Shown piece by piece: positions 7,569 to 15,595 of a stretch of DNA of 36,608 bases. The position numbers were made by a program, and so were the translations under genes. The notes under the pieces are model-generated. The model saw nothing but the letters and a program-made list of their open reading frames with translations, searched no databases and had not been told where the DNA came from. The DNA lies in assembly GCA_021846045.1 (NCBI GenBank), contig JAJZCM010000016.1, positions 1 to 36,608 on the forward strand. Direction: 5' to 3'. How positions within the stretch are numbered: the stretch's first letter is position 1; each line of letters begins with the position of its first letter. The DNA is from a bacterium (GTDB lineage Bacteria; Elusimicrobiota; Elusimicrobia; UBA1565; UBA9628).

Positions 7569-7750
7569 AGCGGGGGCAAGCCCAGTTGCTTGCAGATTTT
7601 CCGGGCCGCGAAATCTTCCATCTCAGGGTGGCGAGTGATGGGAGCCTCTTTTTGGTTGGCCGGATTTTGGTAAATGGAGTATTTCCCTCCTTCCCGTATC
7701 AGCACGCAACCGTTATCAGTCAGATATTTAACGAGGTCCCGCCGTTTCAT
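7565..7750 (-). CDS. HicA-like mRNA interferase homologue, orphan
   Basis: The 61 residues follow the HicA/YcfA fold: MKRRDLVKYLTDNGCVLIREGGK, a second strand, IYQNP, then PITRHPEMEDFAARKICKQLGL. In active HicA toxins a His follows the GG/GS-K turn; here that place is Tyr24 (GGKYSIY). RNase activity is therefore doubtful. No HicB-type antitoxin gene lies on either side. It may be a solitary, decayed toxin, or a family member using another residue. The gene ends inside the XapX stop and starts about 100 bases before the kinase start, on the opposite strand. Confidence 0.7.
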   Translation of the reverse strand: MKRRDLVKYLTDNGCVLIREGGKYSIYQNPANQKEAPITRHPEMEDFAARKICKQLGLPPL

Positions 7751-7796
7751 GACCTTATTCTATATTTTTACGAAAAAAGGCTCAAGTGTTGACGGG

Positions 7797-7825
7797 TTGA
7801 CAGGGCGCGCTCCATCCGCTACACT
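7797..7825 (+). promoter_or_regulatory. Sigma70-type promoter of the kinase operon
   Basis: A consensus -35 TTGACA (7797-7802) is followed after 17 bases by TACACT (7820-7825). Transcription would begin near 7832, sixteen bases before the ATG at 7848. This supports the downstream start for the kinase rather than the longer in-frame extension that runs back through the hicA-like gene. Confidence 0.75.
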
Positions 7826-7847
7826 TTTGGAAGCGGCGCCAAAAATA

Positions 7848-10382
7848 ATGTTGAGAAAAAAAGGACTTGTTTGGGATGTTTTGTTGGGGGTTTTCTTAAC
7901 CCTCATCGTCAGCTTGGGATATCGTTTTTCTTCCGCGTTTCCTGTCTTTAGATCTTTCGAGCGCAAATTTTATGATTGGAGATCCACTTTGCGCCAGGAT
8001 TTGACTTCCGGGCGCCAAATCGCCATTATCACAATTGATGACGACTCGATTTCGCAATTGGGGCGCTGGCCGTGGCCACGGACGAGAATTGCCGAACTCT
8101 TGGATAAACTCAAAGACGCGCAAGCAGGAGTTGTCGGGCTTGACATTGTTTATTCCGAGCCGGAAAATGACCGCGGAATAAAGGCTCTCAAGGCGATTGC
8201 TCAAAATTATCAAGAACTTACTTCATCGCATAAGATTTTCGATCGCCGGCATTTGTTTGAGATCTTAATTTCTTCTGAAGAAGCCCGTTTGGACGCGGAT
8301 GCGCGCCTGGCCTTTGCGATTCAAGAATCCAGCAATGTCGTCTTGCCGCTGATTTTTACGCAAGAAAGTTACGGACACGCTCAGAGCGCCGCCCTTCCTC
8401 CTTTATTTTCAAGCGCGAGCGTGCGCTTGGCCGTGACTACGAATATGAACTCATCCGAGATTCCCCAGGGTTTTGATCCGGCTTATCCGATTCCCGCTTT
8501 CGCCCAAGCCGCAGATGGAATCGGCCACGCTAATTTAAGGCCCGATTCCGATGGGGTTTTGCGGCGGGTGGACCCCGTTATTCGCTATAAAAATTCCTAT
8601 ATCCCCGCTTATTCGTTGGCCTTGGCCCTAGCTTCGGAAAAAATATCGCCCTCCGCCGTGACATTCTCTCCGGGAAAATCCGTCGATTTCGGACGGACTA
8701 AAATTCCGCTTAATTCCAGAAGCCAGATGATGATTCTATTTAATGGGCCGTATCGGACTTTTAGGTACTATTCTTTCAGCGACGTAATGAACGGTCACGT
8801 GGACATGGAGGCGTTTAAAAATAAGATCGTCTTGGTTGGTTTAACCGCAGCCGGCGTCTACACGCCTTATGCAACCCCATTATCCCCCTTGATTCCTCCG
8901 GTCGAGGTTTTGGCCAACATTACTTCCAATATTTTGGAGGGCCGCTTTATTTCCCGTCCTGCGTGGGCCCCGAAGCTGGAATGGGGCCTTATAATTGCGG
9001 TCGGAGCCTTCATCATTTTGGCGTTGCCGTTTCTTCCCGCTTTTTGGGGTTTTGCGTTGAGTTTTCTCTTGTTTGTGTTTATTTTGGGTGTCGGGAGTTA
9101 TTTTTTTCTGTTTGGAGAATGGGTAAAAACGAGTTATCCCGCCATTTTACTGGCCTCGGGATATTTGATTGGAGTTGTCCGGCGGTTTTTTGTGACGGAA
9201 AAGGGCAAGGAACTCATTGAAGCCTCAGCCATTGAAACCAACAAAATGCTTGGACTGTCCTTTCAGGGGCAAGGGATGCTCGATCTTGCTTTTGAGAAAT
9301 TTCGCTTGTGTCCGATGGATGAGCCGATGAAGGAAATTCTTTACAATCTCGCCTTGGATTTCGAGAGAAAAAGACAGTTCGCGAAGGCCGCATCAGTCTT
9401 GGAAATGATCGCTAAAAAAGACCGAAAGTACAAAGACGTCCAATCCAAGATGACGGTTCTTAAATCCGCAGCCGGTGGCGCGGTTTTTTCAGGGACCATC
9501 GGCGCCAAAAAAGAAGGGACGGTGGTCATCGCCGCGGGCGCAGCCTCGCCCACCCTAGGGAGATACGAGATTCAAAAAGAATTGGGTCGAGGCGCGATGG
9601 GAATTGTCTACTTGGGGAAAGACCCTAAAATTAACCGCTTAGTCGCGATTAAAACGATGAGCCTTGGTGAAGATATCGACCCCCAATCCGTTAGGGAAAT
9701 CAAGGAGCGCTTTTTCCGCGAGGCGGAAGCGGCGGGAAAACTTAATCATCCCAATATCATCCGTATTTTTGACGCCGGGGAAGAAGACGATATCGCCTAT
9801 ATCGCCATGGAATTTTTAGAGGGGCAAAGCCTGGCGGCTTACACTGAAAAGGGGCATTTGATTCCGCTTAAATCCGCGATGGAGTATGTCGCAATCGTCG
9901 CGGACGCCCTAGCCTATGCCCACCAACAAGGCGTCATCCATCGGGATATTAAGCCGGCCAATATCATGATTCTCAAAGATGGCAGCCTTCGCGTCGCGGA
10001 CTTTGGAATTGCCCGTGTGGCGGCCTCTTCCAAAACGGCGACCGGAACCGTTATGGGAACTCCATCTTATATGAGCCCGGAACAGATCGCCGGAAAAAAA
10101 GTCGATGGGAGATCGGATATTTTTTCCCTCAGCGTGGTTTTTTTCGAGCTTTTAACCGGGGAAAAGCCGTTTAAAGGCGGCGATGGGATCGGCGCTCTTC
10201 TTTTTCAAATCGCCAATGATCCGCATCCCGATCCCTTGTCAATCGTTGCGTCCTTGCCGCCCTTGGTCGCGGCGATTTTAAATCGGGGTTTGGCAAAAAA
10301 TCCGGACGCGAGATATCAAAATGCGGCGGAATTGGCCCGGGATATCCGCTCATGTTACGGAATTTTGAAGGCCCAGGTATGA
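7848..10382 (+). CDS. CHASE2-domain membrane Ser/Thr protein kinase
   Basis: The protein has 844 residues when started at ATG 7848, just after the promoter. One N-terminal membrane helix leads into a periplasmic CHASE2 sensor (FERKFYDWRS, IAIITIDDDSISQLGRWPWPR, GLDIVYSEPE). Membrane helices follow around residues 365-450, then a short TPR-like linker (QGMLDLAFEKFRLCP...), and a Hanks-type kinase from about 570: GRGAMGIVYLG, VAIK (Lys602), HRDIKPAN (Asp700), DFG (Asp718), GTPSYMSPEQ. All catalytic residues are present. It should phosphorylate Ser/Thr in response to an extracytoplasmic signal. The next genes encode a matching phosphatase and a phosphothreonine-binding FHA protein, overlapping in sequence. 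The signal and substrates are unknown. Confidence 0.93.
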   Translation: MLRKKGLVWDVLLGVFLTLIVSLGYRFSSAFPVFRSFERKFYDWRSTLRQDLTSGRQIAIITIDDDSISQLGRWPWPRTRIAELLDKLKDAQAGVVGLDIVYSEPENDRGIKALKAIAQNYQELTSSHKIFDRRHLFEILISSEEARLDADARLAFAIQESSNVVLPLIFTQESYGHAQSAALPPLFSSASVRLAVTTNMNSSEIPQGFDPAYPIPAFAQAADGIGHANLRPDSDGVLRRVDPVIRYKNSYIPAYSLALALASEKISPSAVTFSPGKSVDFGRTKIPLNSRSQMMILFNGPYRTFRYYSFSDVMNGHVDMEAFKNKIVLVGLTAAGVYTPYATPLSPLIPPVEVLANITSNILEGRFISRPAWAPKLEWGLIIAVGAFIILALPFLPAFWGFALSFLLFVFILGVGSYFFLFGEWVKTSYPAILLASGYLIGVVRRFFVTEKGKELIEASAIETNKMLGLSFQGQGMLDLAFEKFRLCPMDEPMKEILYNLALDFERKRQFAKAASVLEMIAKKDRKYKDVQSKMTVLKSAAGGAVFSGTIGAKKEGTVVIAAGAASPTLGRYEIQKELGRGAMGIVYLGKDPKINRLVAIKTMSLGEDIDPQSVREIKERFFREAEAAGKLNHPNIIRIFDAGEEDDIAYIAMEFLEGQSLAAYTEKGHLIPLKSAMEYVAIVADALAYAHQQGVIHRDIKPANIMILKDGSLRVADFGIARVAASSKTATGTVMGTPSYMSPEQIAGKKVDGRSDIFSLSVVFFELLTGEKPFKGGDGIGALLFQIANDPHPDPLSIVASLPPLVAAILNRGLAKNPDARYQNAAELARDIRSCYGILKAQV

Positions 10383-11197
10383 AAGCTCCCTTTGAAGCGG
10401 CGGGGCTCAGCGATATCGGGCGCGTGCGCACAAATAATGAAGATTCTTTTTTTTACGATGCGGAAAAAGGAATTTTTATCGTGGCCGATGGCATGGGAGG
10501 GCATAATTCAGGCGAAGTGGCGAGCGCTTTTGCGGTCTCCATGGTTAAGGATTTTTTGATTCAGAAAAGCCCGGGCATCGGGCGTCGAATTTCTTCGTCG
10601 GATTTAGAGGCGGGGGTCAAGGCGGCGAACAGCCTCGTCTATGCGAGAGGGCGGGCGTTGCCCAAGGATTCAGGAATGGGGACCACCCTAGTCTGCGCAT
10701 GCGGGGATGGTGAAACGCTTACGTTGGCGCATGTGGGAGACAGTCGCGGGTATATTTTAAGACGCGGCGTTCTATCATGTTTGACGGAGGATCATTCTGT
10801 CGTTCAAGAGCAAATTAGAAAAGGTCTTCTTCGGGAAGAAGAAGCCGCTGTTTCCGAGCTTCAAAATCTTCTGACCCGGGCGGTGGGGTCGAACCCGGAG
10901 GTGGAGGTGGATGTTTCCACGCATCCGCTATTTTTTGGAGATGTTCTCTTGCTTGCTTCCGACGGCTTGACCAAGATGGTCGCGGATTTTCGGATTCAAG
11001 AAATTTTGTCGCTTAAAGAAGATGCCGCGACTCTCGCCTCAAGGCTTATTTCAGAAGCGCTGGAGGCGGGGGGGGTCGATAATGTGACGGTGGTGGTGGC
11101 CCGGGTCCAAAGAGAGGAAAATAAATCGCCGTGGACGTCTCCATGGTCTAAAATGAAATCGCTATTGAGAGGTCCCAATGCCGAAGCTTCTTCTTAA
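10379..11197 (+). CDS. PP2C-family Ser/Thr protein phosphatase
   Basis: I start at ATG 10379 (ATGA overlap with the kinase stop), which gives 272 residues beginning just before GLSDIGRVRTNNEDSFF. The PP2C metal motifs are complete: NNED, VADGMGGHNSGEVAS, GMGTTLVCA, AHVGDSRGYILR, LTEDHSVV, LLASDGLTKMV and GGVDNVTVVVAR. It is the expected eraser for the adjacent kinase, as in bacterial PrkC/PrpC and PknB/PstP pairs. No membrane segment is present, so it is cytosolic. Confidence 0.93.
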   Translation: MKAPFEAAGLSDIGRVRTNNEDSFFYDAEKGIFIVADGMGGHNSGEVASAFAVSMVKDFLIQKSPGIGRRISSSDLEAGVKAANSLVYARGRALPKDSGMGTTLVCACGDGETLTLAHVGDSRGYILRRGVLSCLTEDHSVVQEQIRKGLLREEEAAVSELQNLLTRAVGSNPEVEVDVSTHPLFFGDVLLLASDGLTKMVADFRIQEILSLKEDAATLASRLISEALEAGGVDNVTVVVARVQREENKSPWTSPWSKMKSLLRGPNAEASS

Positions 11198-11864
11198 GTT
11201 TAACGCCGCAGTGCTTAAGGAAATTAACTTGGGGCGGGGGCCGTTGCTCGTGGGACGAGGCCCCAACAATGACGTGGTCATCAATAATCCTGCCGTTTCT
11301 TCCAATCATTGCAAAATTACCTTGGAAGGCGAAACTTATTATGTCGAGGATATGGACTCGACCAACGGGACTTATGTGAATGAAAAAAGAATTAAAAAGT
11401 GCGGCCTTCATAATCAAGACGTCGTCGGAGTCGCTAAACATTCCCTGGTTTTCATTGAGAACTCCGTTTCCGCTGAGGAGGATAAAACCATATTTTTATC
11501 GCCGCAAAAACAATCCGAAATTCTCGCCCAATCGGCGAAGACTCCCGCCAAACTGGGGAGGTTGAGAGTTCTAAAAGGGCTGGCCGGGGCGCCGGAGTAT
11601 GAACTCAAAGGGCTTTCCACCTATATCGGGAAATCCGAAAGAGTCCAGATTCCAATAAAAGGAACAGGCCTGTTTGGCTCCGCTCCGGAAGTTGTCGCTT
11701 CCATTCACAGAAAATCCAACGGATATAGTTTGATTGCCGTGGTTCCCGGATATCCCATTCTCAATGGAGAAAAAGTGTTTCCTCCGGTTTTGCTTAAAAA
11801 TGGGGATATTTTGGTCTGCGGTGGGACGACTTTTCTATTTAACTTGGAAGATTCTTCTTCTTAA
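11178..11864 (+). CDS. Double FHA-domain protein
   Basis: 228 residues with a canonical FHA domain near 15-95: LLVGRGPNNDVVINNPAVSSNHCKI and DSTNGTYVN, holding the Arg, Ser, His and Asn used to bind phosphothreonine. A second, weaker FHA-like domain covers about 125-225 (GRLRVLKGL, STYIGKSE, ILNGEKVFPPVLLKNGDILVCGG) but lacks the SxxH core. No membrane helix is present. It overlaps the phosphatase gene by 20 bases and is the probable phospho-reader of the kinase/phosphatase pair. Its stop codon overlaps that of the convergent PAP2 gene. Confidence 0.9.
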   Translation: MPKLLLKFNAAVLKEINLGRGPLLVGRGPNNDVVINNPAVSSNHCKITLEGETYYVEDMDSTNGTYVNEKRIKKCGLHNQDVVGVAKHSLVFIENSVSAEEDKTIFLSPQKQSEILAQSAKTPAKLGRLRVLKGLAGAPEYELKGLSTYIGKSERVQIPIKGTGLFGSAPEVVASIHRKSNGYSLIAVVPGYPILNGEKVFPPVLLKNGDILVCGGTTFLFNLEDSSS

Positions 11865-12529
11865 AACTTTCTTGAGATTCCCACCGACCAATCCCGCCCC
11901 GGAATGATTTGAAGGGTAAACGGGGATTTAAAAAAACGCCGCGCTGCCCATCCTGAGGCGAAACCCAAGGCCATGCCGCCGATGGTGTCGGTGGGGTAAT
12001 GCCCACGGGCTTCTATCCGTCCGGCGGCGTCCGCCACGGGCAAAAGAGTGAGGAGGTAAACCATAGGGTGATCGGCCCCGTACTCATAAATGAAGGGGGA
12101 AACTAACGCCGCGGTATTGGAAACGTCGCTGGAAGGAAAACTTTGGCTTTGGGGTCCCGAAAACCAGGCGTTGGCCCCCAGGTTTTGAGTTGGTCGGGCC
12201 CTTTGGAAGGCGTATTTTAGCCCGATATTGGAGGCCGAAGCGATGACGGCTGAATCCAGGCTTTGCCAAAGAGTTTTTCCAAAACGCGTTTGAGCCCCAT
12301 CCCAAATTGCGCCTCCGGCGGTTAAAGTCGTCATCGCCATCGGAAAATAAGGGGTCGTAAAAATCGCCCATGGTCCGCTGATGTGGGGCGTTTTTGGGGA
12401 GCAGTCGATTAAATTAGGGCAAGACCATAACGCCCGCGGAATTAAAAATAAAACAGCCCAAAAAATGAGGAGATGGAGCTTTCTAAGGGCCCTAACGCCC
12501 TGAGTTTGGAAGAAAATATTTTTCAACAA
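11861..12529 (-). CDS. PAP2-superfamily phosphatase, exported
   Basis: The C-terminal half has the PAP2 motifs KYAFQRARP (motif 1) and GRIEARGHYPTDTIGG (motif 3 with the nucleophilic His). Motif 2, normally PSGH, reads PSSD in SFPSSDVSNTAALV. A hydrophobic signal or anchor (LHLLIFWAVLFLIPRALWS) precedes the domain. No ATG exists near the N-terminus. I place the start at a TTG near 12529, 38 bases inside the end of accC, which gives a short charged leader; another TTG at 12619 is possible. The substrate may be a lipid or undecaprenyl pyrophosphate; this is not visible from the sequence. The loss of the motif 2 His could reduce activity. Confidence 0.75.
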   Translation of the reverse strand: MLKNIFFQTQGVRALRKLHLLIFWAVLFLIPRALWSCPNLIDCSPKTPHISGPWAIFTTPYFPMAMTTLTAGGAIWDGAQTRFGKTLWQSLDSAVIASASNIGLKYAFQRARPTQNLGANAWFSGPQSQSFPSSDVSNTAALVSPFIYEYGADHPMVYLLTLLPVADAAGRIEARGHYPTDTIGGMALGFASGWAARRFFKSPFTLQIIPGRDWSVGISRKF

Positions 12530-13844
12530 AGGAGGTATCGAAATTCCCGGATAAGAAATCCTTGTGGGAGAGCACTTTTTTATGGAAATCCCGGGTGGTT
12601 TTGATCCCTGAGGTTTCAAGTTCCGACAGAGCGCGGAGACTTCTCTTAATCGCGTGATCGCGGTCAGAGGAAAAAACGATCAGTTTAGCTATTAAGCTGT
12701 CGTAAAAGCTGGGAACGGTGTATCCAGCGTAAAGATGGGTGTCGAGTCTCACTCCGCAACCGCCGGGAAGAACGAGCTCGGAAATTTTTCCCGGAGACGG
12801 CGAAAAATTATTGTCCGGGTCCTCGGCGTTGATGCGGTGTTCGATTGAATGAAAATGAATTTCAGAGGCGCGCGCCTGATCAAAGGGAAGTTTTTCCCCT
12901 GCGGCCAAGCGTATCTGGGTGTTGACGAGATCAAGGCCGGTGACCGATTCGGTGACTGGGTGTTCGACTTGAAGGCGGGTGTTGACCTCGATAAAATAGA
13001 AATTTCCGTCCGGGTCCAACAAAAACTCAACCGTTCCAACGTTGGAATATTTTGCGGCCAAGGCCAGCTTTCTCGCCGCCTCCTGCATCTTAGCGCGAAT
13101 TTCAGGCGTAACCTTGGGAGAAGGAGACTCTTCAATCAGTTTTTGATGGCGTCTTTGAACGGTGCAGTCCCGTTCGGGAAAAGCGACGGCGTTCCCAAAA
13201 TTGTCGGATGCGATCTGAATTTCCACGTGCCTTGGGCGTTCGATGAATTTTTCAATATAGACCGAACCGTCTCCGAAAGCGGCCTTGGCTTCGCTTTGGG
13301 CGAGTTTAAGTTGCTCTTCGAGGTCCTTGGGGTCGCGGACCAGCCGCAGCCCCTTTCCGCCTCCACCCGAGGCGGCTTTAACCATGACTGGAAAGCCCAC
13401 GGCTTGGGCTTCCTTCATGAAATGTTCGTCAACCAAACCTTGGGTTCCGGGAACGACTGGAACTCCCGTTTCTCGGGCCAAGGCCTTTCCTGCGCTCTTA
13501 TAGCCGAGCTTGCGAATCGCGGAGGCCGGAGGGCCTATGAAAACAAACCCATTTTTAACGCAGGTCTCGGCAAAATCCGCGTTCTCGGAAAGAAATCCGT
13601 ATCCGGGATGAACAGCCTCAGCGCCGCTTAACCTAGCGGCAGTTAAAAGGGCCTCGGAATTTAAATAGCTCTGTTTAGCCGGGGCCGGGCCGATGCAGTA
13701 AGCCTCGTCTGCTAGGCGCACATGCATCGATTCCCGATCAGCTTCGGAGTAGACGGCGACCGCTTTGATGCCCATTTCCCGGCAGGCGCGAATAACGCGC
13801 ACCGCGATTTCGCCGCGATTGGCGATTAAAATCTTTTTGAACAC
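12492..13844 (-). CDS. accC: Biotin carboxylase subunit of acetyl-CoA carboxylase
   Basis: It uses ATP and bicarbonate to carboxylate the biotin on the carrier protein, the first half-reaction of fatty acid synthesis. The 450 residues match the usual length. MFKKILIANRGEIAVRVIRACREMGI begins the N-domain. The ATP-grasp Gly loop is AASGGGGKGLRLV, the catalytic core ERDCTVQRRHQKLIEE, and FIEVNTRLQVEHPVTE holds the metal and bicarbonate residues. All key positions look intact. It begins 2 bases after the accB-like gene, which lacks a normal biotinylation motif, so its carrier partner is uncertain. Confidence 0.96.
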   Translation of the reverse strand: MFKKILIANRGEIAVRVIRACREMGIKAVAVYSEADRESMHVRLADEAYCIGPAPAKQSYLNSEALLTAARLSGAEAVHPGYGFLSENADFAETCVKNGFVFIGPPASAIRKLGYKSAGKALARETGVPVVPGTQGLVDEHFMKEAQAVGFPVMVKAASGGGGKGLRLVRDPKDLEEQLKLAQSEAKAAFGDGSVYIEKFIERPRHVEIQIASDNFGNAVAFPERDCTVQRRHQKLIEESPSPKVTPEIRAKMQEAARKLALAAKYSNVGTVEFLLDPDGNFYFIEVNTRLQVEHPVTESVTGLDLVNTQIRLAAGEKLPFDQARASEIHFHSIEHRINAEDPDNNFSPSPGKISELVLPGGCGVRLDTHLYAGYTVPSFYDSLIAKLIVFSSDRDHAIKRSLRALSELETSGIKTTRDFHKKVLSHKDFLSGNFDTSFVEKYFLPNSGR

Positions 13845-13846
13845 GA

Positions 13847-14239
13847 TTATTTCCCGTCCGGTTCGATGAAAATCAAGGCTTGTCCGTAAGCGACGGGGCT
13901 AGAGTCTTCAACTAAAATGCGGGCGACTTTCCCAGAGGATGAAACTTTGACCGGAACCGTTTTCCCCGGTAGGGTTTCGATATACCCAACAGTCTCTTCC
14001 GCCGGAAGAGAAATCCCTTCCTCTACTTTCTGTGGGTGTCCCGGACGCGACCAGTGAAAGGTTCCAATCGCCGGGGCCGATACGGCTTGGTAATGGGCCG
14101 GCGGCATGTCCGCGAAAGACTGATCCGCGTGCTCGGAAGTCGCAAATGAAAAACCGGAGTCCTTTTCCTTCAGGGCCACCGAAGTCAGATCGGTCGTTTT
14201 AACCCAAGCGAGAATTTCTTTAATTTTTTCCGTGTTCAT
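13847..14239 (-). CDS. accB: Biotin carboxyl carrier protein homologue lacking the AMKM biotinylation motif
   Basis: A 130-residue protein in the usual accB-accC arrangement. The C-terminal biotinyl fold is recognisable: VSAPAIGTFHWSRPG (50-66), KVEEGISLPAEETVGYIE (71-88) and SSGKVARILVEDSSPVAYGQALIFIEP (101-127). The hairpin that normally carries EAMKM reads E88-T-L-P-G-K93-T. By spacing from the SGKV strand, the biotinylated Lys would fall on Gly92 or Pro91. Lys93 is one place off and lacks the Met neighbours that biotin ligase recognises. It may be a non-biotinylated regulator, comparable to plant BADC proteins, or use an atypical Lys. A separate true BCCP would then be needed elsewhere. 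Confidence 0.85.
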   Translation of the reverse strand: MNTEKIKEILAWVKTTDLTSVALKEKDSGFSFATSEHADQSFADMPPAHYQAVSAPAIGTFHWSRPGHPQKVEEGISLPAEETVGYIETLPGKTVPVKVSSSGKVARILVEDSSPVAYGQALIFIEPDGK

Positions 14240-14259: not shown

Positions 14260-14694
14260 TTATTTTCTCTGATTCAAGACAAAGGCCCACGGCAGCAAGT
14301 GGGAGGCGGTCGTTTCTAAAACGTTGGAATAAGGGTCTCTTAAAGACGCATCAACCAACAAAACCGGGCATCCGTGGGAGGCAAATTCCATTAAGACCTG
14401 CCGGCAGGCTCCACAGGGCTTGGGCGATTTAGTCGCAACACAGATGGCGGTGATTTTCTTGTCTCCACAGGCGACGGCGGTAAAGATTGCGTTTCTCTCC
14501 GCGCAGATGCTGAGTCCATAAGAAGAATTCTCGACGTTGCAACCGGAGTAAATTTTTCCGGAAGAGGTTAAAACCGCGGCCCCAACAGCGTAGCGGGAAT
14601 AGGGGCAATAGGCGCTTTTGCGAGCTTTGAGAGCCTCTTTTATCAGCTTATTTTTCTGGGGCCGGCTCAGCGACGCCTTGCGGTTTTGAGGCAT
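14260..14694 (-). CDS. cdd: Cytidine deaminase
   Basis: It deaminates cytidine and deoxycytidine for pyrimidine salvage; cytosolic. Zinc and catalytic motifs are complete: ENSSYGLSICAERNAIF (Cys and Glu) and PCGACRQVLMEF (two Cys). ARKSAYCPYSRYAVGAAVLT gives the N-terminal substrate loop. I start at ATG 14694 (MPQNRKAS). A TTG at 14736 would add 14 residues and overlap the upstream phosphorylase gene. About 144 residues is close to the homotetrameric type (near 130). It sits next to MTA phosphorylase, so two nucleoside salvage enzymes are together. Confidence 0.93.
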   Translation of the reverse strand: MPQNRKASLSRPQKNKLIKEALKARKSAYCPYSRYAVGAAVLTSSGKIYSGCNVENSSYGLSICAERNAIFTAVACGDKKITAICVATKSPKPCGACRQVLMEFASHGCPVLLVDASLRDPYSNVLETTASHLLPWAFVLNQRK

Positions 14695-14719
14695 TGTGTC
14701 AGTTATTTCGTAATGAGCC

Positions 14720-15595
14720 CTAAATATATTTCCCAACGATCAAGGATAATTTCTTTTTCGTCGCCGCTGGAATGGCTTTCGGCGCGGTCACAATCGCGTG
14801 CTTCATGGCCTCGGGGCAGGAACATCGGGCGCTTCTCTTCGCAATTTCGGGAATGGCTGAAACCAAAAGCCTTTGCGCGTTTTTGGAATTGCCCTGCATG
14901 ACGGAAGTGACGATATCGGCCGAGACTTCTTCCCCATCTTTCCAACAGTCGTAATCAGTCACCAAGCTGATCAGGGAATAACAAATCTCCGCCTCGCGGG
15001 CGAGTTTGGCCTCGGTTGCCGCTGTCATGCCGATGACGGAAAAGCCGAGGCTCTTGTAAAAGCGCGATTCGGCCTTGGTTGAAAAAAGCGGCCCCTGCAT
15101 GCACAAATAGGTTCCGCCTTGATGGGAATTGATCGCCAGAGACTGGGATTTATCAAAAAGGATTTTTGATTGATCAGGGCAAAACGGGGTGTGAAAAGCT
15201 GTGTGGGCGACGATGCCGTTTCCAAAAAAGGTGGCGTTGCGTCCGTGAGTCAGATCAAAAATCTGATCAGGGAAGACAAAATGGCGCGGAGATAATTCTT
15301 CTTTTAACGAGCCGACTGCGGTCACTCCAATCAAACGCTCGACTCCAACGGATTTAAGAGCCCAAATATTGGCCCGCACGTTGATTTCTTGCGGCAAAAT
15401 CGTGTGGCCGTTTCCATGCCGCGCTAAAAAAGCGCAGGGAGCGCCGGAAATCTCTCCCAAAATTAACGGCGCCGATGGGTCGCCAAAGGGAGTTTTAACC
15501 TTAAGAAGGCGCTTGTTGGAAAAGCCGTCCATGTCGTAAAGGCCGCTTCCCCCGATGATTCCTATTTTCGCTTTTTTGTTGGAAGATGATTTCAT
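14720..15595 (-). CDS. mtnP: S-methyl-5'-thioadenosine phosphorylase family enzyme
   Basis: It cleaves methylthioadenosine with phosphate to adenine and methylthioribose-1-phosphate, part of methionine and adenine salvage. The 291 residues carry the family set: GIIGGSGLYDMDGF, FLARHGNGHTILPQEINVRANIWALKSVGVE, TAVGSL, GTYLCMQGPLFSTKAESRFY, GMTAATEAKLAREAEICYSLISLVTDYDCW. Gln in MQGP replaces the usual Glu of MEGP. That residue differs among relatives, so a purine nucleoside phosphorylase-like specificity cannot be excluded. AAGGGGG lies 4 bases before the ATG as ribosome binding site. Confidence 0.93.
   Translation of the reverse strand: MKSSSNKKAKIGIIGGSGLYDMDGFSNKRLLKVKTPFGDPSAPLILGEISGAPCAFLARHGNGHTILPQEINVRANIWALKSVGVERLIGVTAVGSLKEELSPRHFVFPDQIFDLTHGRNATFFGNGIVAHTAFHTPFCPDQSKILFDKSQSLAINSHQGGTYLCMQGPLFSTKAESRFYKSLGFSVIGMTAATEAKLAREAEICYSLISLVTDYDCWKDGEEVSADIVTSVMQGNSKNAQRLLVSAIPEIAKRSARCSCPEAMKHAIVTAPKAIPAATKKKLSLIVGKYI

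Follow-up and report, generated by a model that had tools for sequence, protein, structure and literature searches.

BADC proteins are homologues of the biotin carboxyl carrier protein (BCCP) that lack the biotinylation motif and occur alongside a true BCCP and biotin carboxylase (BC) in the heteromeric acetyl-CoA carboxylase (ACCase) of plant plastids (PMC11926652, PMC7712654). Such non-biotinylated homologues have been called unique to the plastid enzyme (PMC11926652), and opinion on their role is split between an inhibitor that competes with BCCP and an assembly glue (PMC11926652, PMC7712654). Here we describe a bacterial locus with a comparable configuration. It lies in a window of 36,608 nt, the whole stretch of DNA that was analyzed, from contig JAJZCM010000016.1 (GCA_021846045.1) of a member of the Elusimicrobiota; all positions are window coordinates. 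Next to an intact accC gene, the window encodes an AccB-like protein without the EAMKM biotinylation motif. Across the phylum, we named the accC-linked AccB-like protein BCCP2 and the unlinked BCCP BCCP1. Our analyses make it fairly probable that BCCP2 was once the AccB of this accBC operon, lost its normal biotin site, and persists as a BADC-like, non-catalytic partner of AccC.

The BCCP2 reading frame ends 2 nt upstream of the GTG start of accC, and the opposite (+) strand across the gene is interrupted by stops. The original prediction, which was made from the letters of the window, had described a clear biotinyl fold in which ETLPGKT replaces EAMKM at residues 88–94, next to a fully conserved accC, and all three statements held. 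AccC is full length, scored 648 bits against TIGR00514 (cut-off 626.5), and its GGGGKG, RDCTVQRRHQK, and EVNTRLQVEH motifs are all intact. The AlphaFold2 model of BCCP2 had pLDDT values of 84–97 across residues 51–130, and its best PDB matches in Foldseek were E. coli BCCP structures 1bdo and 4hr7 (rmsd 1.4–1.7 Å, TM 0.86–0.89 by target). A profile of 41 orthologues searched against the PDB gave E. coli AccB 4hr7_B as the top match (E 6.6e-16). The profile match, the model, and Foldseek all identified a biotinyl-domain fold with a thumb. With TIGR00531 (AccB/BCCP), the window protein scored 43.5 bits and fell outside the AccB model, whose cut-off of 115.2 is strict for this phylum, given that the genome's own EAMKV-bearing BCCP1 reached 109.6 bits. 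A Pfam search of the window protein at 1e-3 gave no match, and PF00364 gave 18.9 bits. In the model, the turn of the hairpin falls at Pro91-Gly92, and Lys93 opens the strand that follows. The protein thus has no biotin-acceptor Lys in an EAMKM-type hairpin, the Lys of ETLPGKT being displaced and not conserved.

The N-terminal segment was predicted to form a helix (residues 3–13) and two strands (18–24 and 29–34), and W12 and D17 were invariant among the 41 orthologues. Orthologues of BCCP2 were present in 54 of the 57 relatives searched, with an intact reading frame in nearly all members of the class, in independent assemblies. The hairpin reads ETLPGK(T/S) in four other species of the genus, whose proteins are 83–84% identical to that of the window, and dN/dS against these congeners was 0.08–0.15, indicating purifying selection on BCCP2. 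Conservation was highest in the core (residues 51–60 and 100–127), good in the N-terminal segment and the thumb, and lowest in the linker and the hairpin tip. Position 93 had the lowest information content among the hairpin columns. Lys93 was kept across all five species of the genus, but was not conserved beyond it.

We then considered which biotin-dependent enzymes the host genome encodes (2.0 Mb, 97% complete). The window accC was the single BC found (one PF02785 match), and a genome search gave one biotin-protein ligase, of the BirA type. The original prediction had proposed looking for another BCCP and for accA. A second AccB homologue was found, namely BCCP1, which carries EAMKV and is unlinked, on contig C32 between pnp and ftsK. 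The remaining clear biotinyl/lipoyl domains in the genome belong to lipoyl E2 and GcvH, so that BCCP1 is the only recognisable biotin acceptor. No AccA (PF03255) was found in the genome, the search giving just 31–38 bit cross-matches within three PccB/MmdA-type proteins, and these three were the only carboxyltransferases found with PF01039 and the AccA model. One PccB-type gene (C84:28147–29574) is clustered with genes for enoyl-CoA hydratase and HMG-CoA lyase, an arrangement that resembles a leucine-degradation (methylcrotonyl-CoA carboxylase) cluster, and the genome has no BC subunit specific to it.

Two findings went beyond the original prediction: loss of EAMK is recurrent across the phylum, and loss of the whole hairpin coincides with the absence of AccA. 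We read the AccB-like proteins of 80 genomes, almost one per genus (G, L, f, and g numbers are our survey labels for genomes, loci, families, and genera). BCCP1 was read in 77 genomes and kept the EAMK Lys in each, a count made by excluding BCCP2 rows; one protein flagged by the pattern (G049) reads IIEAMKVMNE and thus keeps EAMK. In 69 of 74 genomes, BCCP2 and accC shared a contig and a strand, with BCCP2 upstream. Of the five exceptions, three were near contig ends, and in the other two the genes were 20 kb apart (G154) or on different contigs (G063).

The BCCP2 hairpin showed three states. Outside the clade of the window, 33 of 40 proteins had EAMK or close variants (state i), and nearly all those checked had efp upstream, the classical efp-accB-accC order, which BCCP2 shows in the lineages that have AccA. 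The other seven (state ii) had K→R (G087, G164, G058, G059, G064, and G097) or K→Q (G051). A second species of genus g73 (G217) and a further genus of family f22 (G107) confirmed the K→R change, while two congeners of G058 retain K. In families f1–f5 and f10–f13, the EAM hairpin was replaced in all 42 proteins read (state iii). Family f8 was left out of the states because a run of N in BCCP2 of G050 left its hairpin unread; in this genome the N-terminal domain of BCCP2 seemed to be fused to AccC, but the fusion was rejected as an artefact of the 86-base run (L294 1378–1463). In a quick AccC tree built from 75 genomes, EAMK loss in BCCP2 required at least seven changes, and state (iii) formed one side of a branch with a support of 97. 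A BCCP tree, built on few columns, separated BCCP1 (97) and grouped the state (iii) proteins (96). These comparisons show, at the level of sequence, that BCCP2 is orthologous to the Lys-bearing AccB found in the same operon position in other Elusimicrobiota, and that it lost the EAMK hairpin while keeping, under purifying selection, the AccB fold and an N-terminal segment putatively homologous to that of AccB. Outside the Elusimicrobiota, the Lys was kept in all 25 matches read, out of 80 loci, in a scan limited by its pattern.

Several changes accompany the hairpin loss. AccA was found in none of the 38 state (iii) genomes tested, compared to 20 of 22 others, and the two AccA-less genomes among the latter were 80–85% complete. 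Fisher's test gave p = 6e-14, a value that overstates the evidence because one or two evolutionary events underlie the correlation. Of the state (iii) proteins, 33 of the 34 measured had an anchor-to-anchor distance across the linker of 40–44 residues, compared to 46–66 in Lys-bearing and other BCCP2, and the median for BCCP1 was 66 (anchors were located by pattern, which gave a distance for some of the proteins only). Such a short, nearly fixed linker would suit a domain that has stopped swinging between two active sites. Upstream of BCCP2, state (iii) loci had a cytidine deaminase gene instead of efp wherever the neighbour could be assigned, except in family f5.

Family f5 (G047, G056, and G212; loci L351, L350, and L349) has a very divergent AccC on a long branch, with GGGGRG and RRNQK variants, together with a BCCP2 without EAMK, no AccA, and efp still upstream. 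It is possibly an intermediate or a separate loss. Many clade members also carry a zinc-ribbon-like gene of about 420–720 aa, with N-terminal C-x2-C pairs, between BCCP2 and accC (L290 1021–2814, L287 980–2248, L292 1048–2733, L339 422–2578, and, on the reverse strand, L139). This gene is absent from the genus of the window.

Table 1 Positions of BCCP2, its predicted parts and its neighbouring genes in the window.
Feature	Residues	Position	Strand	Description	Basis
BCCP2 gene	1–130	13847..14239	−	AccB-like protein of 130 aa without EAMKM, ATG start	Reading frame and translation
N-terminal segment	1–34	14138..14239	−	Helix-strand-strand, putatively homologous to the AccB N-terminal domain	
Short linker	35–50	14090..14137	−		Anchor-to-anchor measurement
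Biotinyl-like domain	51–127	13859..14089	−	Thumb-like insert at 61–75	Foldseek to 1bdo/4hr7; HMM to 4hr7_B across the thumb
Hairpin	88–94	13958..13978	−	ETLPGKT for EAMKM, one residue longer than canonical	Alignments and model
accC		12492..13844	−	Full length	TIGR00514
Cytidine deaminase gene		14260..14736	−	Upstream neighbour of BCCP2, replaces efp in the clade	

Elsewhere in the window, tandem genes on the + strand (7674–11864), read by eye, encode a large protein, putatively of the membrane, whose C-terminus resembles a Ser/Thr kinase, together with a PP2C-like phosphatase and an FHA-like protein.

The simplest reading of BCCP2 is a partner of AccC without carrier function, because its core and N-terminal segment are conserved under purifying selection and the N-terminal domain of AccB has been modelled as attaching to AccC only (PMC10863985). 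According to this reading, BCCP2 would not be biotinylated, its N-terminal domain would bind AccC, and it would occupy some of the BCCP positions in the AccC-BCCP complex beside the true BCCP. BCCP1 alone would then carry CO2 to the PccB/MmdA-type carboxyltransferases. With less certainty, BCCP2 may serve mainly as an assembly scaffold, letting one AccC and one BCCP serve several carboxyltransferases, and, as a proposed bacterial analogue of plant BADC, it probably helps AccC and the true BCCP assemble. A wider proposal, for which we consider the chances about even, is that of a bacterial BADC system, in which the accB of an AccA-less clade became an obligate non-catalytic partner of AccC and its paralogue the sole biotin carrier for several PccB-type carboxyltransferases, the Lys also having been lost by K→R/Q in other lineages.

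Some observations weigh against a non-catalytic AccC partner. At the aligned column, 18 of the 42 state (iii) proteins have a Lys (E-x-G-K and similar), notably in family f13, and residual biotinylation of some E-x-G-K members of the clade is possible. The homology of the N-terminal segment to that of AccB is weak, with an in-register match to E. coli AccB 1–51 of 6.1 bits and a moderate pLDDT of 64–75. The correlation with AccA rests on the one or two events mentioned above. Both the predicted partner role and the predicted lack of biotin are drawn from sequence and models, which do not distinguish a scaffold from an inhibitor.

As an inhibitor or regulator, BCCP2 would be a dummy BCCP, competing with the biotinylated one for AccC and reducing carboxylation in certain circumstances. 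The configuration is the same as in plants, where BADC has been suggested to compete with BCCP for access to BC (PMC7712654), and linkage to accC would hold the dose matched. However, since nearly every genome encodes it together with the sole AccC, such a dummy would apply the brake permanently, and NMR work in plants argues against the inhibitory model (PMC11926652). We consider an inhibitor unlikely and modestly favour an assembly subunit, given that several carboxyltransferases have to share a single AccC and a single BCCP, with the partner encoded beside AccC nearly everywhere. The original prediction had drawn the parallel to plant BADC proteins that restrain ACCase. The parallel stands for the configuration, with a motif-less BCCP in the accB position, an intact accC, and a true BCCP elsewhere in the genome, but the restraint itself does not follow from it.

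It is rather improbable that BCCP2 has remained a biotin carrier by way of an unusual acceptor, which would be Lys93 in the window and the E-x-G-K Lys in other members. The residues that flank the Lys are not strictly needed for biotinylation, Lys93 is shared by the five species of the genus, and the 18 clade members with Lys at the canonical column fit such a role. However, many orthologues have no Lys at the tip, and the column holds ten residue types (R, A, P, Q, G, S, N, C, and V besides K), with at least 15 switches between K and non-K on the AccC tree, a variability that we read as relaxed constraint after the motif was lost. Position 93 is the least informative of the hairpin, the sister lineages show only K→R/Q changes, and shifting the target Lys a single position within the hairpin reportedly abolishes biotinylation. 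Lys93 was rejected as a family-wide acceptor, being displaced and variable outside the genus, and the suggestion of the original prediction that it is an unusual acceptor is weakened accordingly.

The N-terminal part of E. coli AccB has reportedly been suggested to exert feedback regulation on accBC, and BCCP2 could be such a regulator of its operon, with the biotinyl-like domain as a relic. The retained N-terminal segment and operon position agree with this role, but conservation of the biotinyl-like core equals or exceeds that of the N-terminal segment, as would not be so for a relic, and we regard a feedback regulator as highly improbable. A decaying pseudogene or local sequencing error, which the loss of so famous a motif might suggest, is hardly credible given the intact reading frames, the low dN/dS, and the invariant core residues, and the hairpin shared by the four congeners rules out the sequencing error that the original prediction had allowed for.

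If BCCP2 is a non-catalytic partner of AccC, the clade offers an independent natural experiment in which the operon AccB was converted, while sister lineages keep the Lys or show only K→R/Q. Its intermediate states and simple recombinant parts bear on the glue-or-brake dispute in plants. The hairpin change would be linked to a rebuilt carboxylase with no AccA and with one AccC and one BCCP for several carboxyltransferases. The locus is also a warning that a gene in the accB position does not always encode a biotin carrier. We found no report of a bacterial BADC or a Lys-less bacterial BCCP in the open-access literature (subscription papers were outside its scope), in agreement with the original prediction, which likewise knew of no bacterial parallel in the accB position.

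Actinobacterial AccE (epsilon) is not a biotinyl-domain protein. BCCP2 resembles it, by functional analogy only, as a small non-catalytic subunit in a system with one biotin-carrying component and several PccB-type carboxyltransferases, but it has a biotinyl-domain fold and no homology to AccE was seen, placing it outside that class. With bacterial AccB (E. coli 1bdo and 4hr7), BCCP2 shares the fold, the thumb-like insert, the position before accC, and putatively the N-terminal segment; it differs by the missing EAMKM, the shorter and nearly fixed linker, and a score below the TIGR00531 cut-off. Because a single organism combines a motif-less BCCP homologue with BC and a functional BCCP, the system has the gene configuration of the BADC-like functional class and is a candidate member of it. 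This resemblance appears to be one of function, and common descent is not claimed from a comparison that included no plant BADC sequence; the grouping of the window protein with Elusimicrobiota BCCP2 suggests an independent origin. Unlike plant BADC, BCCP2 is a bacterial protein, only predicted to bind BC or BCCP, whose gene belongs to the accBC operon; it appears to stem from the local AccB and accompanies the absence of AccA.
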